From Polytrichum commune (lineage: Eukaryota; Streptophyta; Polytrichopsida; Polytrichales; Polytrichaceae): DNA of 64,000 nucleotides. The notes beneath the pieces were generated by a model that made no database searches, was not told the DNA's origin, and was given only the letters and a program-made list of their open reading frames with translations. Location: assembly GCA_950295325.1 (NCBI GenBank), contig OX485804.1, positions 12,772,001 to 12,836,000 of the forward strand, read 5' to 3'. Shown here piece after piece: positions 5,696 through 63,199 of this stretch. The position numbers were made by a program, and so were the translations under genes. Positions within the stretch are counted from its first letter, which is position 1. Each line of letters begins with the position of its first letter.

Positions 5696-5698
5696 TAA

Positions 5699-6198
5699 GG
5701 GCCACTTCACACATGAGCCAAGAGCCGTGACCATGAAATTGTGAGAGCCCCAAATGAAAGTGTCCAATGGCCATCCCAAGACACCTCCAAAATCATGTAG
5801 TGTGGTCATGGATCCTCAAGTGTAGTGTGAAGTCATATGTGACTGGGCCCTCAACCAAATACTATTTCAATGAAATTCTATTCATGTTGGTCCTCACACA
5901 TGATGAAATAGAATAAATCAACGGTTGTGAGCGTTCAGAGTGCCATGATCTCCCGGTTTTGTGTTAGGCCTACCTCCAAGAGATGGTGTTTGAAAATAGT
6001 CCAAGTGACCATGAAACATGATCCATTTGATGCCATGTAGGAATCCATGTTGCCTTTACGTCCATCTTGCAGTCACATACTCTGTTGGTCCCTTAAGCAT
6101 AGTGTGAAGCGAACTTGGACCGGCTCCGCCTTTTCCACCAATGAGAGTGCTTGAAGAGTAATGGTCACGGGCTCTCAGTCTCGTGTGTGAAGTGGCCC
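5699..6198. mobile_element. Tourist/Harbinger-like MITE, copy 1 (500 bp)
   Basis: The ends are inverted repeats: the left begins GGGCCACTTCACACATGAG and the right is its complement with one change. The element is flanked on both sides by TAA (5696-5698 and 6199-6201), the 3-bp target duplication of PIF/Harbinger elements, whose tips also commonly begin GGG or GGC. A second full copy lies at 38950-39430, about 85% identical by eye along its length with the same TAA flanks. Open frames inside are not conserved between the copies, so this is a non-autonomous element. Confidence 0.88.
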
Positions 6199-6201
6199 TA
6201 A

Positions 6202-24080: not shown

Positions 24081-24504
24081 TATCACTCGCTGATGGCGTC
24101 TTCCTCTGCTCAACTCATAGCGTGCCTACACTTACTGGTGTGGGTGATCAGCGAACGGCTCCTACCAACACGGGTCATTTTTAACTCCCATTTGACCAGT
24201 GATAGCCACTGGATGTAATCTTTTACTGGAGGTCTGCACTAGGAAGTGTGGGTGGACTATCACTCGCTGATGGCGCCTTTCTCTGCTAAACTCAAAGCAT
24301 GCCCACACTTACTGGTGTGGGTGACCAACGAACGGTTCCTACTAGCACGAGCTACTTTATCTCCCGTTTGACCAATGATAGCCGCGGGATGTAATCTTTC
24401 ATTGGTGGTCTGCACCAGCAAGCGTGGACGGACTATCACTTGCTAATGGTGCCTTTCTTTGCTTAACTCACAGCGTGCCCACACTTATTGGTGTGGGTGA
24501 CTAG

Positions 24505-25219
24505 CTCGGGGGGTGCACTGTACTAAACATGTACGAGTATACGTGAGTGCATAGGAGGGGTATTGATTTGGACCTTGCCATATTACGTATACATATGGTA
24601 TACATGTTATAATTTATAGTTACGTACATATATGGAAGGCCTTTAAAAAGTATACAATAATTGTACTTGTATGGTATTGTTACTATACTACATATCATAA
24701 GTTTTCATATTGGATGCGGAGGAAGTTTTGTAATCGTTGGGTGGAGTATAGGGATCCAATTGACTTGATGGACCGTCCATCAAACGTGGAGATTGGTTTA
24801 TGTTGGTATCAAAAAGGGGGTAACAACAAGTGGACATATGATCTTACTGATCATTTGATGGTAGACTTAGAGACAATTATTACATTGGCTACAATGACAT
24901 ATATTGGTGAATCAAATGTTTATGAGTTACATCCGGGAGATGAAAAAGTTTTCAACGACTTTGTTGATGAAAGCTAGGATATTTTGTTATACATATTATA
25001 GGGGTTGATTATTGTTCAAAAGTATATTTGTATACTTATGTTAATGACTATATATGAATGGATGTTTTTTTGTGTATACATATTTAACTTGTATATTTAT
25101 GGTTGCAATTGTATGTGTATTACTTCATTTCACAAAAAATAACTCGTATATAGGGGGTTTTTAGAGTATGCAGTGAACACACGTGATTTTAGGTATTAAT
25201 GAAAGGTGCACCCCCCGAG
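24505..25219. mobile_element. hAT-like DNA element, 715 bp, inserted in the tandem array
   Basis: Perfect 14-bp terminal inverted repeats, CTCGGGGGGTGCAC (24505-24518) and its complement (25206-25219), are bounded by a perfect 8-bp duplication GTGACTAG (24497-24504 and 25220-25227). Neighbouring repeat units give the empty site with only one copy of this 8-mer. An 8-bp duplication is the hAT signature; the tip sequence is not the usual CAGRG, so the family is uncertain. The interior is very AT-rich and holds one 87-codon open frame. It is too short for a transposase, so the element is non-autonomous. Confidence 0.85.
24714..24977 (+). CDS. Hypothetical 87-aa frame carried by the hAT-like element
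   Basis: The frame lies wholly inside the 715-bp element. It has a plausible amino-acid composition with an acidic C-terminus ending FNDFVDES and a Trp-containing middle (VEIGLCWYQKGGNNKW). I do not recognise it. It could be the tail of a former transposase, a captured host exon (a splice acceptor could precede it) or chance. The intact frame in a young-looking insertion is the main reason to list it. Confidence 0.3.
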   Translation: MRRKFCNRWVEYRDPIDLMDRPSNVEIGLCWYQKGGNNKWTYDLTDHLMVDLETIITLATMTYIGESNVYELHPGDEKVFNDFVDES

Positions 25220-25690
25220 GTGACTAGTGAACGGTTCCTACCAGCACGAGCTACTTTAGCTCCCATTTGATCAATGATAGCCACAGGATGTAATCTTTCA
25301 CTGGTGGTCTGCACCAGCAAGCGTGGACAGACTATCACTTGCTAATGGTGCCTTTCTCTGCTTAACTTGCAGCGTGCCCACACTTATTGGTGTGGGTGAC
25401 CAGTGAACGGTTCCTACCAGCACAAGCTACTTTAGCTCCCATTTGATCAATGATAGCCACAGGATGTAATCTTTCAGTGGTGGTCTGCACCAGCAAGCGT
25501 GGGCGGACTATCACTTGCTGATGGTGCCTTCCTCTGCTTAACTCATAGCATGCCCACACTTACTGTTGTGGGTGACCAATGAACGGTTCCTACCAGCACG
25601 GGTTACTTTTAGCTCCATTTGACCAATGATAACCACAAGATGTAATCCTTCACTGGTGGTCTGCACCAAGCAGTGTGGGTGAGCTATTAC

Positions 25691-26115
25691 TTAGTTTTGC
25701 CAAATTCAATACTTGAAATTGGTCGCAACTTAGTCAAGCGACTATGAAAAGGTTTCCCTATTAGCTGGAAACTGAATCAAGTTTACACCATTGCAACAGT
25801 CAAATCATTCAATGACTTATCCAATAGTAGAATCCCACAAATAAAGCAACCAAAGCAGTGTCCGGGGAGGATTTGGGGCATAACTGGTCTTTCCTTTATC
25901 AAATTTGAGGTATATTCTATATATTCCTCCAATATGATCAGTAATATTTTTAAGCCTTGAACTTCAACTGCTTATTTCTCAAACTCAACCGATTCTTTCC
26001 AGCAGTCAGTTCTCCCCGCTCATTGTCCCATAGAAACGTCTACTGAAATTTGGGCTTTAGTAATGATTACATGCTCGTACACAGTATCCCTGGATTACGA
26101 GCAAGATTATGAGTA
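25691..26115. other. Intergenic DNA with one stray minisatellite unit
   Basis: Non-coding. 25945-26010 is a single diverged unit of the 65-bp minisatellite at 18.6-18.95 kb. Confidence 0.5.
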
Positions 26116-34123: not shown

Positions 34124-37100
34124 TCATGGCCGCAATGGTTTCAATCCCAGAGCAGCTCGTAATCTATTTGCTTCAGCAATCTCAGGGTCAGGGTGATCAG
34201 TGCCATCTGTAACTGCTTCCTTCTTCTTTTCTTTCTTCTCTTTCTTCTTCTTGTCCTCCTGGTTAACACGATGCTCACCATCCTCAAGTGCCCCATCATC
34301 ATCACCCCGTCCACGCCGACTGAAAAGCCAACAAAGCAGCATTAGTGATTTGGATATATCCATATCCAATTCTATGAGACAAGGATGGCAAGCACCGGCA
34401 CCAGAGGACTCACATCACTTATGCTGTACAGGCCAGGGTTATAAATATACCGGTTGCCTATATCCAGCAGATTAACGAAATACCCTGATACAGCCTAAAC
34501 ATGAACTTGTAGTAGTCTCAGAACCTTCATGGGGCAAAACAGCCGATTGTGCACTGCTACACTGAAGACTGCGCAATCCTCAACAGACCCATAAAAAGAC
34601 ACCTGGCTTCATCACCTCTAGAACATAGTAACGACTACAGGTACCTTCACAATATATATATGGGGAGACACTGGACAAAACCAAATCAGAATGCAAGTGA
34701 AGTCATAAGATTCAAAGTCAACATGATTCACCTTTTCTTACGATCAGGAGAAATAGAACGGGGTTCACGGTCTCTTTCTCGATCACGTCGTTCTCGACTC
34801 CTGCTTCGTGATCGGCTCCTCCTCCTATCTCTATCACCATATCTTTCTCTCTCCCGATCGCGGCCACGGTCACGGCGGTAGTAGTCCCTGTCTCTGTCAC
34901 GGTCTCTTTCAGAATACAAGTCCCGGTCTTTCTCCCTGTCACGGCCTCTATCACGATGGTAGTCACGGTCGCGGTCACGATCTCTATCCCTACCACGTTC
35001 ATATTCTCGGTCACGATCTCGACCTCTGTCTCGGTCCCCCCTATCTCTGCAGAAGCACACAAAGCCAACTGACTTTAATCTTTGTACTTATGTATCAAAC
35101 ATTTTGTACATATAAAAGAAAACTATCCGCATAGACTGGTGAAAGCATATCACAAGGCAAAATCTACATCAACAGCAAAATACAGGCACATGACTTCCTT
35201 CTGCTGGATTAGACCCTAGAAAAACAACCACATACACGTATTTCCTATCGAAGATTGCAATCTTTAGACACAAGATTATGCCATTATAGATGATGAACTA
35301 GAGCAAAGGCAATCTAATGATCTATCACAACCTGTCAGGAGGTTGCTTCAAGATGGGAGAAAACACATAACATGACATACCACATTCTCCATCACCTAGT
35401 TAATGGTCTACAGCCAAAATCTATCAGTTTTCAAGTATTTAGATTCGTACTGAACAAATGTGCATCTCTTCAAACTTCTCAACTGTGCACTGCCAACACA
35501 AAAAGACCTGAAAGAGTTGCTTAGTGGAAATTATGTCCACATTTGATCTGGAAAGCAAACAAGGGCGGCACAGGCTGTAGCAGATTCTCTTATTGAAAAG
35601 AGCCGCAATACATGCCAGTACTACTAATCATTATCCCAGGCTACATGAGACATAGCATGTGAAAGGTAGACCGTCCATAAATTTTGTATTGCTTCCACAC
35701 ATACATATGAAGCTTCACTGGATAAACATCGAACAGAGGAAAGTGATGAAACATATCTGAATATATCAAGTCCAGAGCTGACATACTACCAAGGTTGGCA
35801 TTCATCAAATGCATTGCATCATACTAGTCACCAGAGACTGACAATACCTACCAGAGTGTGACTAGGTGACAAGGAGATTGTCAAATCTGTAGGACTTGCT
35901 AGTATGAGAGATTCAGTTTATTCATGACTAAACAAATGGTGTCATCCGCATGAAAGCAAAGGACCAAATATGTTGCCTACACAAACTCCAAAATACAAGT
36001 AGAAATCTAACTAAATTCCACAACAAAAGATCCCAACTAAGAGAAGTTCACTCACCGATAATCTCGATGACGATCCCTGTCCCTGTCTCTGTCTCTGTCC
36101 CTGTCCCTATCTTTATCTCGATCCCTTTCCTTCACAGGACTCCTACTTCTCCTATGTTCCTGATCCAACAACCATACTAATTGTCAGTAATGCCAATCTC
36201 ACATGTCCTTGTCTCCATTTAATAGATGCATCCTTGACAGACTAAGAAACATGTAAATGCTGCAAATATCGGAAACTAGGAAAGATCACACAGAAAAACC
36301 ATCAAATAGTTTCCAAACACAAACACTCCTTGCAGATCCCTTATTAATCAAGCAATAGAGGACAGTGATCTGTTAGCTTCCTAAAATCACTTACTTTTTC
36401 AATATCCATAGCCTCAATACCATTAGCAGCAGCTTCTTCCTCTTCTTTCTCTTCTTCCTCCTCAAAATCATCTTCTAAAGCACTGCGGCGTGGTTCTAGC
36501 TGCCCACCAGTCTCCAGGGTCCACCTGATACAGAGCTGCCGAATCAGTTACACCCCTTCAGCAAACTACCACAAGTCTTTGACAATAATAAAATCATGTA
36601 AGCATATCCAACTTTCTATTAAACATCTTCAGTTCCAAATTAGATCATTTAGCACTGATGAATCAAGTTTCTAAGGTATACTGGATACTTGCATCCATTT
36701 CTCTTCCAATGCTTCAAACAAGGCTCAAATCTCTACAATAGAGTAGCTCAAATCCAAGCTTTTGATCTACTACAAGAAAGACCTGTGATCAGGAAATTCA
36801 TACCTTTTGGGAACTCTAGGGAGAGCAATGTCACAACTATAGTCCATTGTAAGCAATTCATCGATGAACTCATCCACATGCGCAAGAATAAACCCTGATC
36901 AAATGAATAGAATGAGACGCATTCTTGCATACTGTAAGTGCACAGTCACATATGATGTGCTCAAATGTTAATCAAGAGCAAGTTAAGATCAATAAACAGA
37001 AAAACGTTCTGCGTAAAGCGGTATTCTCCAAGTAGACCTTACAATAACAATTTACAAGGAACAGTAATGAACAATGTAGTTTTGGCTTACAATTTACTTA

Positions 37101-38778: not shown

Positions 38779-38949
38779 CTATGGTGAAGACACGGACTCT
38801 TGTGTCTTTGGTTTGCTTACCGCCTAGATGAAAACGATGATCGATGGATGTTTATCATCCATTTTATTACAACCATGGCAGAGATGAATTCTTACAGTAA
38901 CCACTTCATCACTTGATGACACTTTCTCATTGGGGTACAAGAAACCTAA

Positions 38950-39430
38950 GGGCCACTTCACACGAGCCAAGAGCTGTGACCATGAAATTGTGAGAGCCCA
39001 AAAGAAGGGTCTAAAGGCCGTCCCAAGACACTTCCAAAATTATGTAGTGTGGTCACGGGCCTTCAAGCGTAGTGTGAAGTCATATGTGATTGGACCCTCA
39101 ACCAAATGCTATTTCAATGAATTTGTATTCATGCAAGGTCCTCACACATGATAGAAACATAATGAATCAATGGTTGTGAGATTTCGGAGTGCCATAGTCT
39201 CCCAGTTTTGTGTCAGGCCTACCTCCAGGAGGTGGTTTTTGAAAATAATCCAAATGACCATAAAACATGATCCATTTGATGCCATGTAGGAATCCATCTT
39301 GCATTCACTTACTCCATTGGTCCCACAAGCATAGTGTGAAGCGAACTTGGACTAGCTCTACCTTTTGGACTAATGAGAGTGCTTGAAGTGAGATGGTCAC
39401 ATGCCCTCAATCTCGTGTGTGAAGTGGCCC
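38950..39430. mobile_element. Tourist/Harbinger-like MITE, copy 2 (481 bp)
   Basis: The ends are inverted repeats (left begins GGGCCACTTCACACGAG) with TAA on both sides (38947-38949, 39431-39433). It is a sister copy of 5699-6198. It sits immediately upstream of PRP38, so it may lie in or near that gene's promoter. Non-autonomous. Confidence 0.88.
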
Positions 39431-39433
39431 TAA

Positions 39434-40955: not shown

Positions 40956-43825
40956 GCTTAAAGTGTCCACGTACTGTAGAGGAGTGACCAGAGAACGTCC
41001 ACGCGCCCTCCCGGGCAGACTAAAGACTCCAAGTTGCATTTGACTGGGTGGGGCCCTGTTAAGGGCAGTCCAAAAAAAGGGGTATGCCGGTGGGTGTGCC
41101 CAGCGCACGGTATTCTTTAGTAAAAGGCGAAAGAATAGTTCGCTCTGTGCTGAGCACCCGGCTGTTTGATTTCGGGGAGAAGTTCTCGAAGACTTTGTAT
41201 ACAGGTGAGCCCCGCCTGGTGGGCAAACGATATGGGTTTAATCGATCATAGTCCCAGCTCTTCCACTGAAAGAACTACACTACACCTGCATGCTGGGCTG
41301 CATATTTGGAGACTCATTAATTTAGAGCTGCTCCCACCCAAAACCAGGAAAAGGCAAGCACAAAAAATTACATGTTATCGTCTACATGACCACACACTTC
41401 ACTTACTCAAAAACAAAAAAACAAACAAAAGGTTCAAAGAGCCTCTTTCACGCTATCCTTCACTGCCACATGCACGCCCCCTCTTAACATAGCACAATTT
41501 GGAATACAATGCTCTTCACAACATTCAACCGGTTATATCTTTGGACGTTGGTACGAAGAGTCAAAACAAACAATTGTACATAGACTCAAACACCGAATTC
41601 GTACATCGAATATGTCAGTTCTTGCTCAAGCAAAACAAGAGTGTGCCCTAGAACTTATAGAACCTCTCAAAACATCATCATGGATTGCCCAATCAACGTC
41701 CTTTGAACCATCAATCGAGAAGCCAAGAAAAACAAACAAATCTCTCACCAAAGGTCCAATTTTCTTCAAAACCCCCAAAAGTATCACTCACAAAGTTGCT
41801 CTCCCTACGTCCTCTCTGACCCTCCTCACACCATTTCACATTCTTTCAATCCTTCGCACAAAATCTGAATGCAAGAAATGATGAGGTTGTGAAGCTTCGC
41901 AACCTCATCGCAATACTTATTCCTAGCCCGCCTCTCACACTCTGACCGTGGCATCAAAATCCACACCGCTTTCCAAAAACATCAGCTACAACATACCACC
42001 ATTGGTCAGCCACCGGAAACCCACGCCAACAAAACTATGGGCATTACAAATTTACAATGTTGCAATCCATGTCCTTTACTAAGTAAATTTTTCATTTCAA
42101 ATTTCAATGTTTTAAGGTGAACTAAATTGTTAAGATGCAGAATATGCCAAATTAAAAGTGGATGAACTATGGCTTTAGTAAGTTGGGATGACAATAGAGT
42201 TATTCATAAAGGGAAGTGGATGAAACCATGGCTTTAGTCCAAAACCATGAATTTATGAGAACTAGCAGAAAGTCGCCCAATTTTTCTTAATGCTTGATTT
42301 ATCATCCATGAGGAGTGGTGTCGGGCTACTTAAAACCAGCTTTCTAGCTTGTCCTACTAAGAGTGGGTGGGCCAAGCTAGCCTTGCGTAAGCTCTCAGCA
42401 TTGTCTTCAAGAGAATTCGGTGAACATGAACTTCCAAAAATCGATGCTTACTATGTGCATAACTTATGGAGAAAACCTGGATAAGCACATTCCCAAGTGT
42501 TTCTGGAGGGACCAAGTTTGTGGTGACTTTACATGATGAAACAGATGCATTAGACACAAGTAAAAGTGTTGAGTTAGACATGTTATGAGATGAACTAAGT
42601 AGACCACATCCCATCAAAATTAGACAAGTTTCTTTAGATTCAAATCTGCTGCAACCCCCAAACAAATATAACAACTGAGTTTCTCTCCATCATTATATTG
42701 ACGTTCATGTAACCTAGTTAGCAGGAGCTCACAACTTGAGCTTGAACTTGCACAACTGTTGAAAGCCTTTCAATATACAGTGTCTTTCAAAATCAAAAAG
42801 CACATGCCCTACCATTAGGGCACCAGACACACTCTCCATTTCCATTCTCAGAATACACAACCATGACAAGCTTATGCCATGACACATGTGTCACAAGAAA
42901 ATGCAGCTATGCAACCCCTAGGTTGCGATGGATTGAAATTCGCCACAATTGGATATTAAAGAACAATTGTAAATACCCCATTTGTGAAGCCCAGTCAATA
43001 CAAATCAGCTAAAACTATGAGTGGAACCTGGCATACATTCATGAAAAACAACCAGTCCTTAGAGAAATTACAAAGCTCCTAACATGCACTTCCAGGACTC
43101 GCAAGAGTCACAAGAACGACACCGGGATCCAACAAAGAACAAGATTTATGATGACCGCCACAGAGATTTCAATCAGATATATCATTTGGTGGTCACCACA
43201 CCATCAGCGCTACCTATTATCATTTTGCACTCTTACGTATAAAACAACTTCTGGATGTGTGGAGGTCTAACATAGCCACAGGCCTCGTGCATTGGCTTGC
43301 TCCTGCAGTCTTTCACAATATGAATGGTAATAACTAATGCTGCTACTCAACATGGTAAAATAGTAGTCCATGAGAGACCACATCAGACATCCAAAATGAT
43401 TTCATCTGAAAGTTCAACTCTCTCAATAGAAACTTGAAGAAAGGGTTGAAATATAACCAACCTCTCTTCTACTCCCAAATTCTGACCACTCAAGTAGTAC
43501 TATTGCCTTACACTTTCTAACTACTTACAGGTGACTTCGACAGACAAGCCAATACAACAAGTGTTCAGAAAGGAACCAACTTTAAAAAAATTCTGGCTGT
43601 GATCACAGGTGTGCAATTAAGATTCTAGATTCCTAGCCATAATTCGTCTGGAGTGATGCCAGCTCTGAGGTGACTTCCATTAAGAATTCCATGGGACGAC
43701 ACTGTTATTTACACTGTACTAAAATGATGTAGAATGAGAAACAGTTAACTGAACAACAAACTTGCAAACATTTTCTGTGATGCCATCATTGTATGCAGGC
43801 ACCTGCACCAATAATGCACCCTAAC
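40956..43825. other. Intergenic DNA downstream of VHA-G
   Basis: A GC-richer patch at about 40960-41170 of unknown nature is followed by AT-rich DNA without supported exons. 42338-42396 is the inverted partner of 40140-40192. The VHA-G 3' UTR should lie at the right-hand end. Confidence 0.4.
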
Positions 43826-44333
43826 CTAGTTTCTTACGGTGATCACATACTTCATCAAGAGGGCAGTGACCTCCGGAGCTACTTTAGCAGCTTCAGCAGT
43901 GAGACGCTTGATTTTCTCATCAGTCTCTGCTTCTAAGCGTTTCACATTTGCACCAGAGTCCCCACTTGTTTCCTGAAGCTTCTTTCGGAACTCAGCTTCT
44001 CGCTGTGCCCTGTACTGAGCCACTTCTCGCTCAGCTTCCTCTTTAGCTTGCCTCAGTCTGAGAGAATATGAAGGTCGTCAGTTACATTATTGGGTCCTCC
44101 TCCACGTAGCAGTATGACATCAATATTGATGATGCTCCAGATTACGATCATGTCTACATAACACTTCAAGTCATGGGATTCATACAGGACAATAAGTAAA
44201 GATCAAAGCAAAGACCACTCTTATTATTCAATTACCGTGCAGTCTTGGCCGCTCGAGCGTTGGCTACAATGTGTTGGGCATCTTGCTCTGCAGCAAGAAG
44301 GGCCTGAATGCCACCTCTGTCGGATGTGCTCAT
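43826..44333 (-). CDS. VHA-G: V-type proton ATPase subunit G
   Basis: Two coding exons, 44236-44333 and 43826-44057, joined at a GT-AG intron, give 109 residues, the usual plant length. Subunit G forms the peripheral stalk with subunit E that links the V1 catalytic head to the membrane sector of the vacuolar H+-ATPase. The start [20 protein letters not shown] is the conserved N-terminus of the family, followed by [20 protein letters not shown] and a long, charged helix suited to the E-G coiled coil. The last exon ends [15 protein letters not shown] further intron splits the 5' UTR (44359-45221), a common arrangement that can raise expression. The promoter, first UTR exon and most of that intron are duplicated in inverse orientation at 48.1-49.0 kb. 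Confidence 0.93.
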
Positions 44334-44358
44334 GGTGATGCTTATGTGGAATCTTTAC

Positions 44359-45221
44359 CTACACATGATGAGCAAGATCATTAACTGCCAAAAACAGATT
44401 TGGTCACTTATACAAATGTTGAGAAAAAATACATAAGGGGCATCAAAAGCAAGAGCTGGATCGACCCCTGCGAATTGCAAGCCCCCTCCATATCCAATCT
44501 TCAATGCTCAGAAATGGAACACGCACATGTCGTAATTTAATGACGACTGACGCATCAGTAAATATCTATGCTTCAGGATTGAACAAATCAAATTTCTAAA
44601 ATACATTAAGACACACTCGCACATCTAATGGAATTAGGAGTCACTTTCTTGGTCCTCGAAGAATGTTAAAATAGACCGAAGTTCTTCGATTTTCTCAGAG
44701 ATCAGGCCAGCACGAGAAATTCCAGTGAATTCGATTACACGTCTGATTGGCACGTTCTCAAGAGTCGTACAGAGATATGGATCAACGAGGTTTCTACTCG
44801 GACAACTCAAATTATTTTCACATGCCAACACCTGAATCCACATGAATCGTTCGACTTACAGAACGAAAACAGACACAGAGCAGACACAAAAACACGACAC
44901 AAAAACGCGACACAAACATGATCTTCACGGTCCTCAAGATGCCAAACTTTTGGATAACCAGGCTAAAAGGAAGCGATTGAAGAGTCAATTCTTCCTGAAA
45001 GAATGTGAAGCGAAGGGATGAACCAGTAAAACACTCGAGAGAACGGTCTGTCTGGTCGATCACTGAGACGCTTCCCGCACTGTCATAAGGCACAATATCG
45101 TGGAGATCGCAGAGCTCGCAATAGTTAAAGCATTCTCTGTGCGAAAAGAGAAAAAGGATACGCAAATGGAATAAGAATTGCAGGTGCGAAAACAGGCAGG
45201 CGGAGAGGTTAGAGTGCATAC
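44359..45221 (-). other. 5' UTR intron of VHA-G
   Basis: On the minus strand the donor CCG/gtatgc (45221) and acceptor gtgtag/GTAAAG (44359) enclose 863 bases. The donor side, including the exon end GGCTCTCCG or GCTCTCCG, is the same as at 48290 in the duplicated copy. An open frame of 69 codons lies inside at 44634-44843. Confidence 0.6.
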
Positions 45222-45365
45222 CGGAGAGCAGAGGTGAACGGGATGCCGTGGAGGATCTGCGAAATGTAGCAGATGCAAACCCTAGAGGTCTCTTGGTATG
45301 GAGGAGGTGCGAGACGAAGTTCCCCTGGAGTTCCCTACGACGCTCCCTCCACGTTCCCTACTAAT
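44545..45365 (-). repeat. Inverted duplication, arm A (VHA-G promoter, UTR exon, intron)
   Basis: Reading the minus strand from 45365 down to about 44545, this matches the plus strand from 48138 to about 48965 over some 820 bases, with many short indels (around 75-80% identity by eye). It includes the telo-box (45277-45285), the phrase GGGGAACTTCGTCTCGCACC, the splice donor and intron landmarks such as CTATTGCGAGCT and GCCTGGTTATCC. The two arms are separated by 2.8 kb. Confidence 0.9.
45277..45285. promoter_or_regulatory. Telo-box of VHA-G
   Basis: AAACCCTAG in the 5' UTR exon region, conserved in the duplicated arm at 48225-48233. Confidence 0.6.
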
Positions 45366-45583
45366 TTTAGTTTTCTTCTCACACGTGGCAGAAATATCCG
45401 TCCCTTACATGGCGAAAGGTTCCGCCTCTTGGGACCGCTTTACACTCCGTCCCAAGTCCCACTTTGAGGTGAAAGTTTCAATTTTTTGGGCTCTAGAAAT
45501 GAATAAAATGGGGGAAAATTGTATACAGTATCATGGGACTTGGGTTGTCATAATTGTATAGGATAATGCACTAAGGTGTAATG

Positions 45584-45920
45584 TGTAAGACCCATGTAAA
45601 AGGGCCTATAGTAAGAATTCTACTTAATTAAATTTGAACTCCACTAAGAATTGCATTATTCTTAAACTAATGCACATGTCATGTGCAAGCTCGTGTGTAA
45701 ATGAAATTGAACTAAGATATGCAAAACTTTAGTTTTATGAGACATGAGGGAATTATAAAAGCACAAAGGAGGTGAGGATGCATTCATTCATTGTTCATCA
45801 TCCTCGTGTCGTTTGCTCTCAAGCGTCCTCTCTATAGCTCATGGTTGGGTGCTTCGTACCACACATTGAACCCCTCCAGACTTGCAATTTGTTGAATTGG
45901 AATCAAAGCTTTAAGTTCCG
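45584..45920 (+). mobile_element. Possible LTR-retrotransposon remnant
   Basis: The segment begins TGTAAGACCC, has a TATA-like 'attataaaag' near 45753 and ends just before 'tggaatcaaagctttaag' (45898-45915). This resembles the plant primer-binding site for initiator Met-tRNA (TGGTATCAGAGC), matching 10 of 13 positions. No gag or pol follows. A second LTR was not found, so the call is tentative. Confidence 0.35.
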
Positions 45921-47633
45921 AAGAAGAAGATTTGCAGCGCTATGGATGCCATATTGACAAGGGGGGGGGGGGGAAGCATAATTGCTTTACTACATCACAA
46001 TTGGGTTTATTCAACCCTTGCCATACTCACACAATTGTGTTATCTATCCTACAAAACTTATCAATGCCATTTCACGATATATGTCCATGATCCATCATTA
46101 CACAACAATACCTACTCATTCAAACCATATCTACATGAACTCCTTTCCCTAGCCTTAATGTCATCACAAGCAAAACCTTATTTGAAGTCGTTGCATCAAA
46201 TTGCACCACCAGGCTTACTACCAAGTTTTCTTCCGTTAGTTGCCAACCCCATAATCTCAACCAAATCTCTACCACTAACCATCAACAAGGATGTCAACCA
46301 ATATGCATCCTCTCAGAGTGTAAAGAAATTCCCCGAGTTACTCAACAAAATTCTTCACATTCACTATGAAGGATATTGCCCCCCACCGCTCCTACACCTA
46401 ACCCTAGCTCAATAACATATCCAAATCATCTCAATGGTCCCTCCCCTCGAGGCTTTTCCCTAGACTTGCATATTGTTAGATGAGGGGAGGGCATTATGGG
46501 GTTTGAGGGTAAGCAATGATTGAAAATTCCATACTGATTGATCCAAAGTGCATGACATTGCATAAAATAAGTGTAATTATTTTTTGTACAAAGGGCATTA
46601 TGAGTAAGGATCTATACGGACCTGCATTATGGGTTGGCATAATGGCCACACCTCCAAAACAAGGATATTATGGATAGGGAAAAGCCTTGAGGGGAGGTAT
46701 TTATGAATATTTCGGCCATGCCCAGGGGTCCAAAAGGTAGGGCTATAATTTCGTAAATCACCCCAAGGCTTTCCCATGCTAAGAAATCATTGTCCTAAAT
46801 TTCATCTCCAACTTCTTCAATATTCTACACTAAAATGCCTCAGTTGTATGCGTAATGCACTGCCCATGCAAAATGTTTTTTCCCTCTAAAATTAAAACAT
46901 GGAAAATAAGAAACAACAATTGGGACATATATTAAGAAACCAATGCCTTGCCCACACTTACATTACATTTAGTTACTGGCTAAAAACCAATGAAAAGGTG
47001 CCCCCCTACTGGTGGGAGCCATCCACCACCAGTAAGTGTGGCGAGGCCTTCATAAACTAGAAGTGCTTTATATAAAGGGTAAAGTTTGAGGTGCAAGTCC
47101 CAGGCCTTAGCATGGAAACAAACTCCATCAAATGAAAATGGGCGATGTTGCAATCTTAGGTCACCACATATGGGATACCAATCACAACACCCTCCCTTGA
47201 TGCTATCCCATGTCCCATACTTTGAAAGGGGAAAACTCAAAGCTCGTGTTACGTAAGTACAAAGAATCATCATGGCATATTTCACTTTATTTCTCTAATG
47301 TAGAGTGCTTCACATGGCAAAATTGTTTGCCACATTCCTTTGAGGGCCCTTAAGAATTTCTTTTGCCATGGTTTCTTTACATTCAGGGAGTCCTCGCCTT
47401 ATAACCTTGTGAAAGACAAGGGCCCACCCTCATGCGGGGCCTTATTTCCTAGAAAGCTCCAAGACTCAAACCTCACCACTAGTTAAGTAATTGCAACTAA
47501 CATTTTCTTATTATTTTAATACATGAATATTGAATACGTGTATCTTATAATGGCCAACGCGGTGGTGAAGCCATTGCCCCACTTTTGCCCACCATTCTAG
47601 AAAGATGGGGATCACGAGTGCAAAGGGTCATGA

Positions 47634-48049
47634 CACTAAATACAATATTAAGTTTATTTTTAGATGCTAACTACACTAAATGTTGTGTTTGGGGTCACGT
47701 GATATTTTATGTCATTGTGGTAACTTTTCTAATGACACTTATGAATAGGTTTACAAATATCGCCATCCCAACTTACATTATTATGATGAAATCTTACAAA
47801 ATTTTGGTATATTCAACATCCTAACAATTTTGTAATGAAATACTGTCATGGATGGCTTGAAATCTGAATGAAACATCACTTAGTAAGTGATAGTAATTTG
47901 CAACATTGCATATTTATAATGTCCATTTTTTTTAAAAACAAAGAATAGTAAATATTGTTAGGTTTGCATTTAGTGTTAGTGACACTACATGGTCGGTTTA
48001 CACTTAGCAAGACAAATAGAATTGGTGACACTAAATACAATATTTAGTG
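47634..48049. mobile_element. CACTA-ended element (416 bp)
   Basis: It begins CACTAAATACAATATT and ends AATACAATATTTAGTG; the right end is itself a small palindrome. It is non-coding. Flanking direct repeats of about 35 bases at 47518-47553 and 48057-48093 ('acatgaatattgaata' and 'acatggatactgaatg') suggest it sits inside an older duplicated or repeat-bounded segment. Confidence 0.5.
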
Positions 48050-48137
48050 TAGTATATTAGTACATGGATACTGAATGCATATATCCCATATTTGGTGATT
48101 TAGGGTTGCCACGTCCACCGCAATGGTTCCAGAATTA

Positions 48138-48965
48138 ACCATAGGGAACGTGAACGGACTTACGGAGCCTCGTAGGGAACACCAGGGGAACTTCGTCTCG
48201 CACCTCTTCCATACCAAGAGATCTCTAGGGTTTGCGTTTGCGACACTTTCGCAGATCCTCCTCAGCAACGTTGCTCACCTCGGCTCTCCGGTATGCATTC
48301 TAACCTCCGCCTTCCTATTTTTACACCTGCAATTCCAATCCCAATTCCAATTCTAATCTCGGTTGAGCATCCTGTTCTCTTTTCGCACAAGAACGATACA
48401 ACTATTGCGAGCTATGCGATCTCCGCGACCTGGTGCCTGACGACAGTGTGAGAAGCGTCTCAGTGATCCACCGGGATTACTGATTTTCGCGTATTGTACT
48501 TGCGCATCCATTAACTTCAGTGTTTCAGGAAAAGATGAACTTCTCAATCGCTTCTTAGCCTGGTTATCCAAAATTATGGCATTTTGAGGGCTTTGAAATT
48601 CATGTTTGTCTCGCGTTTTCGTATCTGCTCTGCTTCTGTTGTCGTTCTGTAAGTCGGACGATTCTAGTGGATTCAGGTGTTCGCATGTCAAAAGAATATC
48701 AGTTGTCTAAGTAGAAATCCCATTGATCCATCTCGTTGTAAGAATGTCGAGAATGTGTCAATCAAATGCGTCATTGAAGTCGCTGGATTCATCCATGCAT
48801 TACTGATCTTTTGAGGAAATTGAAAACTTCCGAGCTGTTTTAACAGTCTTTGAGGACAGTGAAAATGAGTCCTAACTCCAAAAGATGTGCGAGTGTGTCT
48901 AAAATATTTCAGAGGGTTGATTTATTCAAGCTTGAGGTATAAGTACTTAATGCTATATCTCTCGT
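48138..48965 (+). repeat. Inverted duplication, arm B (microprotein gene promoter and UTR)
   Basis: The partner of 44545-45365. It retains the telo-box (48225-48233), the probable transcription start region, the untranslated exon ending CGGCTCTCCG at 48290 and the donor gtatgc, and then about 670 bases of matching intron. Beyond about 48965 similarity to the VHA-G intron fades. Confidence 0.9.
48225..48233. promoter_or_regulatory. Telo-box of the microprotein gene
   Basis: CTAGGGTTT (complement AAACCCTAG) at the same place as in the VHA-G arm. Confidence 0.6.
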
Positions 48966-49519
48966 AATCAAAGATATTGTGCTCAAGATTGTACAATCTG
49001 CGGATACATCTTAGGTTTAGTCTGCTGATATGACCTGTTGATTGTTTCTGCCCCACTCATTAGCGTAAATTGTTCTAGATTATAGTTGGACTTAGGTTAT
49101 CTTTCATGTAATATTATAGATGTTTTTTAAGATTTTATTTTTTGAATTTTTATTGACTGTCTGGTTTCCTTTGAAACCTTTAAATTGGACCAATCCAAGA
49201 CTTTGGGAAGACAGGCTCATGACATTTTTGTGCTTCTTCTTGCTGTTGACCGTAGGCTCTTGGAAGCATCGTCATCACGGAATTAATAATTAATTATATT
49301 ATAGGTTCTTTTGGAATCTCCATCTTAAATACGTGCATCATGATGATGGCTGCTAAGATTTTTCTTGTAAGTACCAAATTTTTTTTGTATAAATCAAAAA
49401 GTTATAAAAGAATGCAGCATGTTGATATGGAAAGGTTCAGTAGCAGTACATAATCTTTTGTCGTTGATATTTTCCCCTGTTAATTCATAGAGTTTGTATG
49501 ATTTGTGATTGTATTGCAG
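48291..49519 (+). other. 5' UTR intron of the microprotein gene
   Basis: Donor CCG/gtatgc at 48291 and acceptor tattgcag/GTC at 49519 enclose 1229 bases. The donor half is the duplicated VHA-G intron; the acceptor half is unrelated. The exon then runs 20 bases to the start codon. Confidence 0.55.
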
Positions 49520-49539
49520 GTCAAAATCATTCGTTCAAC

Positions 49540-49734
49540 ATGGTGAGGACATATACATTTGCTGCAATGGTGGCAGTTACTTATGCTGTGGTCACAAGTG
49601 GTGATCATGTTTTTCGGTGGATGGCACAACGTCAGGAAGACAAGATGGAGCAGATAAAATTAGACAGACAAGCCATAAGGTTACGGCGGGAGTTGATGCA
49701 AGAACTTGAAGAAAAGAAGGCTGCCACTACATAG
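49540..49734 (+). CDS. 64-aa membrane-anchored microprotein, function unknown
   Basis: The start ATG (context caacATGGTG) lies 20 bases after a clear splice acceptor, so the 5' leader is spliced from the telo-box exon at 48.2 kb. An upstream in-frame ATG at 49498 lies in the intron and is not used in this model. The product MVRTYTFAAMVAVTYAVVTS is a short hydrophobic N-terminal segment (about residues 7-20) and could be a membrane anchor. It is followed by a charged helix (residues 29-60, with KMEQIKLDRQAIRLRRELMQ) likely to form a coiled coil. The layout resembles small single-pass proteins of mitochondrial or other membrane complexes, but I cannot name the family. Its promoter is a sister of the VHA-G promoter. 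Confidence 0.55.
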   Translation: MVRTYTFAAMVAVTYAVVTSGDHVFRWMAQRQEDKMEQIKLDRQAIRLRRELMQELEEKKAATT

Positions 49735-52584
49735 TTCAGCATGGCACTGTCTCATTAATTGCTTTTAAATGAATCGAGTTTCAATGGAACTCTTTGTCTG
49801 GAACTAAAAGTTGCAGTCTCGTGCATGGCTGTAACACCACCCCAACTTACCAGTGTTTTTGTGAGTGTCTACTTCCACTTGACCAGTATATCTGAATCTG
49901 TTATTTGTAGAAATGTTTGCTGGCAGTTTGAGCATAATTGGTTTGTATGGATGTATATATAGGTGCAAAGCTTCAGAAAGAGTTCATAGCTCCTCTGTCA
50001 GCCTAATGCATGCGGCCTTTCTTACTCATTCAGCGAGGGTATACTTTACTCCTGTATAATGGAGGCAATAAGCAAATTGTCAATAGTCTAGTTGGTTGAG
50101 ATTCTGTTGGAATTGTCACACCTGTCTAAATTCCGATGAGATCAATCTGTAGTTGTCTGCATTTTTGCATTGATATTTGGTGATATGGCTTGTTGAAAAG
50201 AACGAAATTTTAGTGATTGTTGCTTTTGGTAAATGGCCAGCTGGCTGGCTTACAAATTCATCCACTATATTGATGATGGAGCTGTGTGCGAACGCTTGAT
50301 CCAAGAAATCATACATCTACTGAGTTTTGAGGCGATTGGAATCGATTTGAAAGAGTTTGCCATCAGCATGTGAAGAAGGGAAAACTCAATATCTACAGCT
50401 CCTAGTACCATTTCCCAAGACAAGCGAATGGCTTCAGGAGGGATCCATGTCTTCAATTCAAGAAATGTTTGGCAGAGTCATCAGTTGTCTTAGGGTTCTT
50501 ACTAGTCTCATCATTTGTTATTATCTATGGATATGTAATTGTGTGTTTGTAGTAGAGATATTATGGTTCTCAATACACACAACCTTTCAGTGACAAGGGC
50601 TTCAAGTTCTATCTTGAAGAAACTAGAGCTTTACTGCCCGCTAACAGAATGCAGAAGAATCAGCTCAATCATAACATCAACTGAGAGGTGAAGGTCATTC
50701 ACTTTCTGCACCCGTTTTGGTAGTTAAACTTTTCCCTATGCCTCAGTGTCATATGAAAAAGATCAGACGTCTTTGCCCTAATGCTATTGGATGTAACGTT
50801 ACAAAGCCAGGGAGACACAATAAAATGTACTCATTGCAGCAGCTGGCTCGGATCTCCCTGCATGAAGAATCTGAAGAAAGATGTTTTAGAACACAGCCAG
50901 ATACACAATTCCTTAGGCGTATAGCTGAGTAACATGAGTATTGGTTGGGAATGCCACTGAGCTAAAAAGGGACCGGAGTTTCTATCTATCTACAGTAAGC
51001 GGTTTACTCTGCGGTGCCAATTACTGTACAAACTGCAGACAAACTATTTCTTACCCACAAAATTTTGCGGACAAATATGAAATGCCTACGCCGATACTTA
51101 GGGATCTTGTGGAATTTCAGGGAGTGGCCTGCACACCTGTTCTCCGGATTTGGATTCCATTGCGAACGCGAGCCTCCACTACCACAAATTATGACGTGTA
51201 TGCCTCCCATATGAAGATACTAAGGCACCCACATCCCAAGTGCAATGGACACAGTAGCCCTAGGCCATCCACCTTGCAGATCATGGATTCACCCCCCTCA
51301 AGTAAGTGAAGAATATATCTTCCACCTGCCTTCTTGTACGCCCGCTCTGCTCCCTGATCGCCAACCGATACAGGGTATGGATCGACATATGAACAACTTG
51401 TACGGTTCAGTGCTAATGTTTTCTTTGTCACCCCTGATCGAGTAAACCAATCACTTTCTTCAAACGATCCGGACAAGCAGCTTCTCTTCAAAATAATTTC
51501 ATCAGATGCTTGGCAGATGTCTAATGCTCTTTCCACTTCTTCCAAGTACATCTTCATGTACTTGCTCTCCAATTCTCTTTTTGCTAGCAATGCACCATGT
51601 GTGATAATTGGAGCTCCACAAGTGAACATCCTGCAACATGCTCCTCAAGGGCACTCCAGTCTACATTCACAAAATAAATTTTTTTGGAAGGAAACACATG
51701 TCACATATGAACTCCATTTTGGTAAGACCTGCAAAACGATACAGGGCATGGAGGGACATGTCAACTACTTGCACGATTCTCAGCCAATCTTATGACACCT
51801 GACAAGCTATAAACCCATCACTGCATTCAAACGATCCGGCCCAGCTTTCGGAGTTCTTCACTTTGTCCTCACATAGTACTTCTAAGTCAAAGAACTGCGA
51901 TTTTGATCTTCTTGAATGTGGAACACTGCATAAGAGATGTGATGTTATGATCCTTTCACATACATGTGCCGGCTCCGTCCTCATTATGAAACAACAAATG
52001 TTTATCAAAGTGGCAAAAGCCTTCGTGCCTGCATTTTCTTCTTGTTAAAGAAAGCAACCAGTGCACTGCACGTAAACCCAAAACATGGCAGATGGCTCAT
52101 GTCCATGCCTCAATGATTGTTTGTTTAGGTCGATGGCCAGCATGATCAATGAGCAGTTTACAAGTAATACATATACAGAAGTTGGCATTATTCCTGGAAG
52201 GAGCGCTGCTGGTGAATCATCAAGCAACCATAATTTCTATAGTGCAGGATATAGGGTAGAAAAATAATCATGTAATAAGAAGTGAGCATCATCATCAATG
52301 GAAGTGAGCAACCGAGTGGACACAGGCAGAGCTAGAAATGGACATTCTTGGCAGGAGGAGTGCTAGAGAATTATCAATCTGGCAGATTCTCTGTAGAGCA
52401 CAAATTAGGGTAACGAGGCAGTCTGCCTGGTACTTCCATTTACATACTCACCAGGTTTCATGCAAAGATACAAGATTCATACAACAATTTTTGCAAGTGA
52501 AATTTACCTATTCTTAATAGGTAGTCCTCAATATGGATTCAATATCATCTGAAGTAATATCTGAAATAAAATATATCTTCAGTA
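49735..52584. other. Intergenic DNA with duplicated segment and weak open frames
   Basis: The first part likely holds the microprotein 3' UTR. 51360-51480 and 51730-51850 are diverged direct copies ('cgatacaggg', 'tcaaacgatccgg'). A 146-codon frame on the minus strand (51189-51629) and a 72-codon one (51790-52008) overlap these copies and share the phrase SGSFEESD / AGSFECSD. They may be remains of a duplicated gene, but no full model can be made. Confidence 0.35.
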
Positions 52585-58800: not shown

Positions 58801-61317
58801 CGTTCTCCACCTCTAGCTTGTAAAGCTTGACCTGGACAAAGGCCACTATTAATTGATGCAGGCCATGAACTTAGCATAACCACATGACTTTCATAAAAAG
58901 GAACAACCTCCAAGTGATAAGAACCAAGATGCCAAGATCCAAGTTTAAAATACTAAGATGTATGGCAAAATAGGACATAAGAACATTGCAGATACTGTCA
59001 GGCAGCTTCGCCACCACATGAAAGGTGTTTATCTCATACTCACCTGTGTAAACATACACCTTTGCTACACTCTTATTTGTAATCTCAATTCGCTCCACAA
59101 CTCCTGGCTCCAACAGCTTGTTCTTAAACTCCTGAAAGCTAATCTGTTTTCAAATAAAAGTAAAATGTAAACCATATAGTAATGATGTAAGCAACATTCT
59201 GCAGAATGGCTTGGGACATGTACCACAGTGTGCATGACAAGTTACAGACTTTTGGAGAGGGTATTTCAACACCAGCTCCATAAATAGATGACTTCTGATA
59301 TACAAGCACCTCTCAGCCAGGCACCAGCCATCTACATTCTTGATGCAAATTACAAATGTCGCTGGCATCCCATGGACGTAGTAGGTGAACAAACAAGAAA
59401 GATAAAATGAAGAAGGCCTCAAGTAGAATCACTCAACTCTTCAGCACAACTTTTTGGAAATCCTGACACATGCTTTTTCAAATAGGAGAAAGTGATCAAC
59501 AACCACATGATGGAGGAAGCCATTTCTACCTGTTGAGCATCGCTGCGGCCAATTGAGAGACTCGTGAGAATAGCCACAGCAACAGCACCTGTGGCTATCG
59601 CAGACTGCAGCTGTGACTTTGACACGTCTGAGAAGGCCTTCTGGTCTTCTGACTTCGGATCCTCTGCAAATTCATGAGCAGATCAAAATATGATTTATGC
59701 AAATATTACCAAGTTGGCACACTAATAGAACCTACATTGTATTGGCAAATGAAGGTTGTTGCAAAGACATAAGTACTCTTGACTGTACATCAAAGCAGTA
59801 CACAAAAGATGATGGAATCTCCAGGCCTATTATTTAAAAACCAGAAAAATGAGTGACAAAGCTGGTTGAATATATGTTAATGAAGAAAAGTGTCAGAATA
59901 CTAAAACAGGCATCACAGCTCAAATTACTCACCATTTTTCTGCTCAGACTTCTGCTCGTTGCGACCTTTGGGATTCTCCTTCTTGTTCTTTGGGAAATAA
60001 TCTTCAAAACCTATCCTCAACAATACCAATTGCTCAAATTCACTGTAGACTCTTACATCAACACACATCTTAACATGCAAATATGATCATGGAATATGTA
60101 TGCAGGCCTCTTTCTGGTCCTGCCTACAAAAGTTTGACAAAAAAATTTGATTTCCACAGGTGTTCTGCACACTATCCTTGGCATTTCCAGTGGAACTTTA
60201 TGGATTAGCACTAGACCTATGTAACACTACACTCAGTAACTTCTAAAAATACTCTACATTAGAAAAATTCCAGTACCCTTGCACTGATGCTTCATAGTGC
60301 AACACCAATTTGTAGACATCCCTAGAAGGTTCAGTTAAGGTACCCACCTTTCTTCCTAGGATTTTCACTAGAGAAAGCTCTTCTAGCTCCAGCGTTTTGT
60401 TGCAAGGCCCTTTGAACCCTCGAGCTCCCAACCCTCCTTGCAACATCATGGATGCCTCGCCTTGCTATTCCAAACCTTTCAAATACATTTTTCGAGATTA
60501 CATAATCTGCAGTTCCAGGCCTGGACAAGCCTAGGCTGTAAAGCCATCTCCTAGATACAGTTTGCACTTGACCACCTGATGATGGTAACGCCTTCTTGTG
60601 CCCTAAATTACTGAAGTTCCTGTACGCTTGTGAGCTCCCAGCAATTTGTTGATTCGTCAAGGTATCCTGCACAACCTCCATAAAGGACCTCACGTTAGGG
60701 TTTTGGGGAAAACTGTGTGTCATGTATGAAGAGAAGGGAGATATGGAAATTCCACACCGTTCGTAAGAATGACTAGCTGTGAAGCTTCTTCAGTGAACAT
60801 TAGTGTAAACGACATCCACCCTAATCATCCAGACTTGATGGGACAACTGCCAATATGCATTAAGCCCGATGTCATAACTGGCGGAAGGAAACCGTCAGTG
60901 ACCCTTTCTCGACTGCCTAAAGTGCTGAACCCTGCCTTACGTTAGTCAAATCAAGACTATCAACAAAAATTTCGATCTCGAGTGATAATGCTTGAAGTGA
61001 AGCTCTTGAATCTGGTCCACTGAACGAGGAGAGACCTACCCAACCTTGTCTCATGAAATTGAATCCGCATCAGGGCGAGATAGGTGAGGGGGAATTAGGC
61101 AGCACCACAGGCAGGACAAAACTGTACACAACCTAACAAGATCTCAAAAGAAAATGCAATCTAGGGTTGACAGATGAGCTCAAATTACAACCAAGCCATG
61201 TAGACAAGCAAGAAGCTTTAGTGATAAAAGGACCAACAACAGACAACCGGGTAAGAAAAGACTTACAAGGTTGCGACGGAGCCGGCGCGCCAATGATGCC
61301 GACCTTTGAGATGACAT
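55868..61317 (-). CDS. FTSH10: Mitochondrial m-AAA (FtsH3/FtsH10-type) zinc protease
   Basis: Coding exons in transcript order: 61267-61317, 60348-60666, 59933-60010, 59530-59663, 59044-59143, 58422-58831, 57369-58136, 56839-57066, 55868-56389; all GT-AG, one 869-codon frame. The product is an ATP-driven membrane protease of the mitochondrial inner membrane, matrix-facing, that degrades and processes proteins and helps assemble respiratory complexes. Exon 1 gives [17 protein letters not shown], a typical basic presequence. Transmembrane segments lie at about 170-187 and 309-325. The AAA domain has Walker A GPPGTGKT (408-415), pore loop FVGVG (441-445), Walker B IIFIDEID (463-470) and arginine fingers in RPGRFDR (526-532). 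The protease domain has HEAGH (633-637) with Asp709 as third zinc ligand. It is similar in length to the Arabidopsis proteins. The exact paralogue (FTSH3 or FTSH10) is not resolved. Telo-boxes lie upstream. Confidence 0.95.
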
Positions 61318-61392
61318 CGAAACAACCTTCTACAACCTTCCGCCGACCTTCCCAAGCGCTTGATTCTTCAACTATTCAAACCCTCGAGAATG

Positions 61393-61597
61393 AAACCCTA
61401 ACCCCGGAAATGCTCACGATCTTCACCTCCTGCTCCTTCGGATCCTCGAAAAAAGAATTCTCCGTTCGTCAGTGAGAGATGTTCCTTTCTTTCCCAAGCC
61501 AACACCAAAATCCTCACTCAAAAATGAGAGAAACCTCGAAACCCCTCCCCAACCGAACGATGATTCTCACATCAAATTGCTCCTCCACAAACCCTAG
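61393..61597 (-). promoter_or_regulatory. Telo-box pair in the protease gene promoter/leader
   Basis: AAACCCTA at 61393-61400 and AAACCCTAG at 61589-61597, within 300 bases upstream of the start codon. Confidence 0.55.
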
Positions 61598-62100
61598 GGC
61601 GTGGCCACCAGATTACCAGACCTCGAAATTGAGCTTCTAAGGGTGGGGTTCGCCTCTCGTTAGGACGCAGGACGCAAATCGCGCACAGGTGGAGTAAAAC
61701 GCACGTCGCGGACTCAAATCGGCACCAAGAGAGTGCGCGAGTGGGTTCACAGCTTCCTCTCCAACATGCGCGGGTTGCGGGGGTCGGGATGTGGTAACTT
61801 CTGGTGACGAGCAGCCGACCCGGCGGAGCGCGGAAGAATCGAACGAAAGCAGGAAAGAAATACGCAGCCTCGTGGCTATGGCGATGGCGAGTGACGTGGT
61901 CGACGATCCTTGACGTCCAAGCCCATCGCCTGCCCGTCCCGGCTGCCCTGAACCCCACCGCTTGTGGAATCAAAGCGGCTAGAATGTTTTTCCCGTTCTG
62001 CCCGTTCTGCCCGGATCCTTCACCGTCAGCCGGAAGATGGAATGTTCTTGAACGGCCAGCTCGGGGGCCTTGAATCTCCACGTCAGCTGTTGGACCATAT
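61598..62100. other. GC- and CpG-rich patch upstream of the protease gene
   Basis: Composition is distinctly higher in GC than the flanks. Open frames occur on both strands (for example 61804-62073 plus, 61572-62117 minus) but are Arg/Pro/Ala-rich, as expected by chance from GC-rich DNA. It is probably promoter DNA; a divergent transcript is possible but not shown. Confidence 0.4.
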
Positions 62101-63199
62101 AACTGGGCTTTGCTCATACTGGGGTGTCACAGCCAACACTTGGTCAAAAACCTGCATATCACCAATCACGTCACAAATTTCCCATATGGTTTTGCCCTTG
62201 GGAAAGGCAAATCAATTGTGGGACACTATAGATTCCGAATGTACCCAGAAAAATGGGTAGGGCCAATGGAATGATGCATGTAAAAGGGGCGAATCGAGAA
62301 TCAAGGAATTGGGGTGACCATCTTGGGCAAGGAGACATTCACACACATTGGGTTTTGTGTAAGGCGGAAATGGCCAATAACGTCGGTGATCTGGCAATTC
62401 TCGAATCCGACATCTAATTTTTGTCCCACAGACTTTGTGTTCCAAAATGAAAAGCTAATGATATAATTTGAAGATTCAAACTTGCAGCTTATTGGCTTGG
62501 TTTGGTTTCTTAACACCTACAGAAGGGGTATTAGTAAATATAGATTCCTATATGTTAATTGTTAATTCATCTCAATATAAGTTTCTTAAGGTGATTTGAG
62601 GACTTACATCCCGATTTAGGAGTTTATTGGCTCTGTCTGTAGGACAAAGGCTATGCATCAACTTCTTCGTTTCAAGAGCAAATTTCCTAACCACTTTGCG
62701 TTCACACTTGGACGTTTAGTTGTTCTTGTTATTTTTGGCCCACTTTATTTAATGTGGATGTTAACTATAATTATATATGTATATGTGCGTATGTATGTAT
62801 GTATGTATGTATAAATAAAACTATAATTTCTCCCTAAAATGCATTGAAAGCAATCTAGTTAACTATAGTTATTTCGGCAGTTCTTGATTATTTATTCTAA
62901 AAATTTCGGGTGATATCAAAATCCTTGACCTGCATTTGAGAAGAAGGTGCACAAAATCCAAGAAAGGTTTGGTATAGTAAATAGCCATGTATTGGCATGA
63001 GCAAAGTGGACAACTATAATTGTAGTCTTTTGTAGTAAAGGACAGAGCCTCACGGTTCTACCGTTTTCTTGTTTAGAATAACATAATAATTCATCCAGCT
63101 CTACAATAGCAACCAAATGGCCATGAAAAATGTAAGAACTTGACCGAGAGAAATTAGGAGCATAAAGGCACCACGGCTTTAACCGGTTGGAATTCCAAC
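62101..63199. other. Intergenic AT-rich DNA
   Basis: A (GTAT)n microsatellite lies at about 62786-62812. No gene is supported. Confidence 0.5.

Follow-up and report, generated by a model that had tools for sequence, protein, structure and literature searches.

Homologous 5' ends in inverted orientation precede two unrelated genes, V-ATPase subunit G and an NDUP9-like complex I subunit

Background

How two neighbouring genes with unrelated products can come to have nearly the same 5' end is the question raised by a locus within a 64,000-nt stretch of DNA (contig OX485804.1, positions 12,772,001 to 12,836,000 of the forward strand), referred to here as the window. A minus-strand gene for subunit G of the V-type ATPase (VHA-G) and a plus-strand gene for a protein of 64 amino acids (aa), which we identify below with the plant complex I subunit NDUP9 (also P9), lie head to head in this stretch. 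An earlier note on this DNA had claimed that the 5' region of VHA-G is repeated in reverse ahead of the second gene, where it would provide a new small gene with a promoter. Our analysis suggests that the locus probably goes back to an old inverted duplication of a gene 5' end, with each copy now providing, in all likelihood, the start region and the leader for a different gene.

A diverged inverted duplication

The segment on the VHA-G side (arm A) was reverse-complemented and compared with the segment preceding the 64-aa gene (arm B; coordinates of all features are given in Table 1). BLASTN returned a single alignment with 618 of 814 columns identical (76%), 48 gap columns and an expectation value (E) of 1e-162, and the local score of the arms was 664, against a maximum of 32 among 200 shuffles. 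The arms are real and form a diverged inverted duplication, so that the reverse repeat of ~820 bases described in the earlier note is confirmed by a highly significant pairwise alignment. Its 2.8-kb gap between the arms and the head-to-head order of the genes are also borne out, and the outer limits it gave (44545-45365 and 48138-48965) were nearly right, being off by 11-26 nt. Past the arms, the upstream flanks are similar only at the null level (125 of 300 resampled sequences scored as high), the remaining parts of the introns are borderline (16 of 300), and the gene bodies show no similarity as DNA (76 of 100 and 77 of 100). No third copy of the arms was found within the window by self-BLAST (E 1e-5).

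Read in the sense of its gene, each arm consists of a GC-rich leader block (125-127 nt), the splice donor CTCTCCG/GTATGCA (the slash marks the predicted exon-intron boundary), common to both arms in the sequence alignment, and then ~660 nt of intron. Homologous 5' regions are found ahead of what are, by their predicted products, unrelated coding exons, which is the pattern by which capture of a 5' end by duplication would be recognized. The alignment and the protein identities together support the claim that a putative untranslated first exon, a donor and an early intron were copied ahead of two unrelated genes. The duplication of a promoter, also claimed, holds for a core promoter and leader at most: upstream of the telo-box (45284) the shared block extends for only 62 nt, to 45346. 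What was copied, or what survives of it, is therefore not a long control region.

Open frames in arm A reach 179 codons and are protein-like in look, and coding sequence hidden in the arms was considered and rejected. Five frames were compared with Pfam, comprising the NDUP9 frame, three frames of arm A and one of arm B, and none attained a cut-off; the counterpart stretches of arm B are, by eye, broken or out of frame; the arm A frames were therefore treated as intron. Rfam gave no match up to E 1 in 44300-49600, and no small RNA gene was found in the introns. Identity within the intron part of the arms is patchy, with a variance above random (p = 0.0185 in 2000 permutations) and a longest run at p = 0.05, which is too weak for functional patches or gene conversion to be called.

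Two unrelated proteins

The minus-strand gene is, by the sequence of its predicted product, that of V-ATPase subunit G. The joined protein (109 aa) matches PF03179 (V-ATPase_G) over residues 5-107 with E 2.8e-30, the domain spanning the whole protein, and the 77 aa of its last exon (43829-44059) match a V-type ATPase subunit G1 chain in the PDB (36qu_H) with E 2.2e-25. No relatives of this last exon or of the 64-aa protein were found in viral contigs.

The 64-aa protein had been taken for a new microprotein. Instead, its sequence identifies the plus-strand gene as that of a divergent NDUP9/P9, a known plant complex I subunit, with homology to At1g67785 over the full length. Searched against 177,635 PDB sequences, it matched the two solved NDUP9 chains, 8bef_u (At1g67785, E 3.9e-5) and 8e73_P4 (E 2e-4), as its top two hits, and the remaining matches had E 0.75 or worse. 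Both alignments are gap-free and run from the start methionine over residues 1-59 of 63, and a longer version of the frame gave the NDUP9 match too. When a profile built from the two NDUP9 sequences was run against 1,694 frames of the window and the same number reversed, the 64-aa frame scored E 3.2e-6, and the next, a reversed frame, E 0.72.

An alternative, that the gene encodes a microprotein specific to its lineage and resembles NDUP9 only by chance, would agree with the low identity of the protein to Arabidopsis NDUP9 (18 of 59 positions) and with its lack of a Pfam family above cut-off. However, chance would have to account for a gap-free match over 59 of 63 residues that places the two NDUP9s first in the PDB and for the separation seen with the profile; in addition, half-wise shuffles of the protein attained its two NDUP9 scores in only 0 of 5000 and 1 of 5000 cases. 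We consider this explanation very unlikely.

The divergence of the protein is nevertheless considerable, for it is also identical to Vigna NDUP9 (LOC106767179) at only 17 of 59 positions, while Arabidopsis and Vigna share 44. It keeps 15 of these 44 common positions, including D22, W27, Q32, K35, R49 and L52, and its length is close to that of the two PDB chains (64 aa versus 63 and 61). In the literature (PMC9873573, PMC9873571), NDUP9/P9 is a membrane protein of complex I that is specific to plants and contacts QCR6 of complex III2. In the supercomplex the subunit is L-shaped, with two helices and one transmembrane segment. The contacts with complex III2 were reported for K41, V45, V48, R49 and L52 (PMC9873573); two of the five, R49 and L52, are identical here, and position 48 is L. 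A single-sequence AlphaFold2 model of the protein is one long helix (residues 2-63; predicted local distance difference test 85.0, predicted template modelling score 0.43), a straight shape that would match many helices. The subunit was formerly named P4 (PMC9873571, PMC7447434) and is listed as SGDH in PMC3671202; the length stated for Arabidopsis P9 is 62 residues. PMC9873573 describes P9 homologues with BLAST E values below 1e-4 from seed plants only, and suspects that others have escaped detection.

Probable use of both arms as gene starts

Leader constraint, predicted spliced leaders devoid of ATGs and CpG richness support the view that both arms are in use as gene starts. Between the arms, the leader block is identical at 111 of 125 aligned positions (88.8%), against 497 of 644 (77.2%) in the intron (Fisher p = 0.0026), with Kimura two-parameter (K2P) distances of 0.122 and 0.276, respectively. 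In both predicted spliced leaders the first ATG is the coding start, whereas 15 and 25 ATGs are present in the corresponding sequences before splicing. The observed/expected (o/e) ratio of CpG is 1.01 and 1.03 in the arms, compared with 0.37 in the spacer and a window median of 0.41. A scan of the window for a ratio of 1.0 over 820 bp found three separate places, the two arms and ~61.1-62.1 kb, the last being where a gene for an FtsH-type protease (Pfam matches AAA and M41; first exon assigned by eye) probably begins. The strongest CpG-rich stretches of the window sit at probable gene starts, and arm B resembles one.

Arm B might instead be a decaying relic, with NDUP9 starting from a promoter of its own at ~49.0-49.5 kb. 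The intron part of the arms, with 23% divergence and indels, would suit decay, and the start and splicing that we assign to arm B are predictions from the sequence. However, decay does not account for a leader block kept above the level of the intron, and the CpG-rich stretch lies at arm B, whereas the DNA just before the NDUP9 start, at 49.0-49.5 kb, is CpG-poor (o/e 0.46-0.56). Moreover, arm B is separated from the NDUP9 start by 11 ATGs that could be removed only by splicing. On this evidence, a relic appears quite improbable.

Several points weigh against the use of both arms as proposed here. The candidate acceptors (exon 2 starts at 44358 and 49520), 25 and 20 nt before the ATGs, were chosen by eye. 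The p value for leader versus intron is moderate. Slow divergence is found chiefly on the 5' side of the leader block, where identity in 60-column windows is 0.90-0.93, followed by 0.84 and 0.82 nearing the donor. The absence of ATGs is weak evidence, as the leaders are related and 125 nt would lack an ATG by chance in ~14% of cases (about 1 in 7). A looser cut-off of 0.75 over 800 bp gives 10 CpG-rich stretches, 7 of them without a linked gene start, and CpG was kept less than GpC between the arms (20 of 39 versus 24 of 33, from A to B). Because CpGs changed more often than GpCs, those of the arms are not exempt from decay, and a lasting lack of methylation is unproven. CGATT and TTNGATYTG are enhancer motifs of leader introns, and these motifs are not clearly enriched in the two introns: CGATT occurs once in each (null ~1.6), and TTNGATYTG once and not at all (null 0.12 and 0.24). 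Finally, the search for further copies covered the 64-kb window, and the arms may belong to a dispersed repeat with copies beyond it.

The telo-box that had been noted within the duplicated block is present in both arms. However, this motif (AAACCCTA, counted on both strands) has 19 occurrences in the window, where 2.6 would be expected, and is thus not specific to the gene pair. TGGGCY is at chance (56 versus 53 expected). With the one motif common and the other at chance, neither argues for special co-regulation of the two genes.

Origin of the arrangement

In the explanation that we prefer, an inverted duplication would have copied a core promoter, an untranslated exon 1, a splice donor and ~0.66 kb of first intron beside another gene, head to head. 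Arm A would then serve VHA-G on the minus strand and arm B NDUP9/P9 on the plus strand, each as start region and leader, and splicing would join exon 1, at the shared donor, to an acceptor peculiar to each gene and 20-25 nt ahead of its ATG. Two unrelated proteins would then be translated from mRNAs whose 5' leaders are nearly the same, and the 5' halves of the two introns would be sister sequences. Transcription from both arms, splicing and co-regulation are inferred. From the K2P distance of the intron (0.276) and plant substitution rates of 1.5-7e-9 per site per year, the arms might be roughly 20-90 million years old, an estimate not used as evidence here.

The earlier note had seen in the locus a capture of promoter and leader intron by inverted duplication. 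This stands as far as the copying of the leader block, the donor and the first part of the intron is concerned, but not for the benefit to a "new small gene": both genes are established ones, so that a promoter for a new gene is the wrong frame. The replacement of an older start region, in VHA-G or in NDUP9, seems likelier than the gain of a promoter by a new gene.

A possible, although less probable, origin is a much larger inverted duplication of a whole gene or locus, after which one of the coding parts disappeared or gave way to another and the spacer was filled with other DNA, so that only the CpG-rich 5' ends remain visible. Leader sharing would then be a remnant, with no one-step capture; the difference from the preferred explanation concerns origin only, and the present use of the arms is compatible with both. 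The limits of the arms nearly match the CpG-rich stretches, and the spacer and flanks are CpG-poor and repeat-bearing, which would agree with such a history. However, a search of the window with both proteins by tblastn, together with the DNA comparison of the gene bodies described above, left no trace of VHA-G coding sequence past arm B or of NDUP9 coding sequence past arm A.

The arms, inverted around a 2.8-kb CpG-poor interior, could also be taken for the long terminal inverted repeats of a mobile element (foldback or Mutator-like) whose ends lie by chance at two gene starts. Against this, the arms carry a splice donor and CpG-rich DNA, and their better-kept end faces the interior, while the outer ends are eroded. 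The window holds no additional copy, and there was no Pfam match at E 0.01 in the two frames tested of the four in the spacer (75 codons or more, wholly inside). We give this origin very little probability.

It had further been suggested that the arms might pair in long transcripts, for which we find no support. The sense leaders of VHA-G and NDUP9 are homologous, not complementary; having the same orientation relative to the homology, they are unable to form a duplex together. For a hairpin to form, there would have to be a single RNA running through one arm, the 2.8-kb spacer and the other arm, and the arms have only five exact 21-mers in common, the longest exact run being 25. Hairpin RNA is therefore unlikely.

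Table 1. Features of the VHA-G/NDUP9 locus, in window coordinates
Feature	Position	Strand	Details	Basis
Arm A	44556..45346	-	leader block and 666 nt of VHA-G first intron	BLASTN against arm B
Arm B	48164..48952	+	counterpart segment preceding NDUP9-like gene	BLASTN against arm A
VHA-G leader/core-promoter block and putative untranslated exon 1	45222..45346	-	putative 5' end; no ATG	88.8% identity to arm B
NDUP9 leader/core-promoter block and putative untranslated exon 1	48164..48290	+	putative 5' end	alignment, ATG scan
VHA-G predicted leader intron	44359..45221	-	863 nt; GT at 45221 (intron start), AG 44360-44359	read from sequence
NDUP9 predicted leader intron	48291..49519	+	1229 nt; GT at 48291 (intron start), AG ends 49519	read from sequence
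VHA-G exon 2	44236..44358	-	ATG 44333, coding 44236-44333	joined protein matches Pfam V-ATPase_G
VHA-G exon 3	43826..44057	-	last coding part, with stop codon; 109 aa once joined	PDB subunit G1 match
NDUP9/P9-like exon 2	49520..49734	+	coding 49540-49734, 64 aa	PDB 8bef_u, 8e73_P4
Telo-box AAACCCTA, arm A	45277..45284	+	reads TAGGGTTT in VHA-G sense	motif scan
Telo-box AAACCCTA, arm B	48226..48233	-	reads TAGGGTTT in NDUP9 sense	motif scan
Spacer separating leader blocks	45366..48137		CpG-poor (o/e 0.37); short repeat in common with 42031-42107	self-BLAST, CpG scan
CpG o/e 1.0 or more over 820 bp	44361-45480, 47881-48980, 61101-62140		probable 5' ends of genes; DNA otherwise CpG-poor	CpG scan

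Other features of the window

A U1-like small nuclear RNA (snRNA) sequence lies on the minus strand at 51150-51309, 1.4 kb downstream of NDUP9, and scores 74.7 against a gathering threshold of 69.5. The U1 snRNA 5' end has the consensus ACTTACCTG, from which the 5' end found here, ACTTACTTG, differs; the sequence is either a variant or a pseudogene. A U5 snRNA gene is found at 41051-41163 (minus strand, Rfam 90.6 bits). The nearby 41228-41238 resembles the plant snRNA upstream element with 2 mismatches, and such matches occur in the window at chance frequency (24 versus 22).

On the minus strand at 34127-35087, an Arg/Asp-rich exon is followed by one that matches the HIND motif weakly and short of the cut-off (E 0.0033); this gene may encode a PRP38-like splicing factor. 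Two related tandem arrays with a 176-bp unit occupy 24081-24501 and 25219-25692, and a direct repeat (5695-6201 and 38946-39433; 84% identity over 509 columns) is perhaps a dispersed repeat.

Significance and comparison with known systems

If the preferred explanation is true, parts of a vacuolar and a mitochondrial proton pump would be made from mRNAs with sister 5' ends. The locus would be a readable case of a gene sharing or exchanging its start region, with arms diverged enough to separate the parts that were held (start block and donor) from the part that drifted (intron). It would also offer a matched pair for asking if unrelated genes can be co-regulated through no more than a common leader and half of an intron. 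The locus adds a divergent member to NDUP9, a subunit of unsettled origin. The DNA looks to be from a plant, and the extent to which this protein has diverged hints at a host outside the seed plants; if that holds, the family is wider than its published BLAST range. A bolder proposal, which we regard as rather doubtful, is that an inverted copy of one leader has tied VHA-G to NDUP9 outside the seed plants for tens of millions of years, and that NDUP9 itself is older and wider.

Several known systems resemble this arrangement in part. Bidirectional promoter pairs are served by one shared promoter, with starts usually within 1 kb. Like such head-to-head pairs, VHA-G and NDUP9 are predicted to be transcribed away from each other, but their leader blocks are 2.8 kb apart, with one copy for each gene, and no single promoter is shared. 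Pack-MULEs and Helitrons likewise duplicate pieces of genes, including 5' ends, beside other coding sequences; in a limited test, however, no mobile-element structure was recognized here. NDUP9 itself is not known to have been transferred out of the mitochondrion.

Plant mitochondrial genes that did move to the nucleus are described as having gained presequences and 5' regulatory elements, as in Cupressaceae and Cephalotaxaceae, where sdh3 has the presequence of a heat-shock protein (PMC8317393). As in those transfers (PMC8317393), the gene of a mitochondrial protein may here have adopted its 5' end from an unrelated gene of the nucleus. Unlike the coding presequence of the sdh3 case, the piece shared here comprises an untranslated exon together with some of the following intron, and donor and recipient lie side by side in inverted orientation. 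Judged by titles and abstract openings, with few subscription journals covered, no published case of such an inverted shared-leader arrangement was found. The takeover of 5' ends is itself already known, and a leader and half-intron common to inverted, unrelated neighbours is a variant of it.

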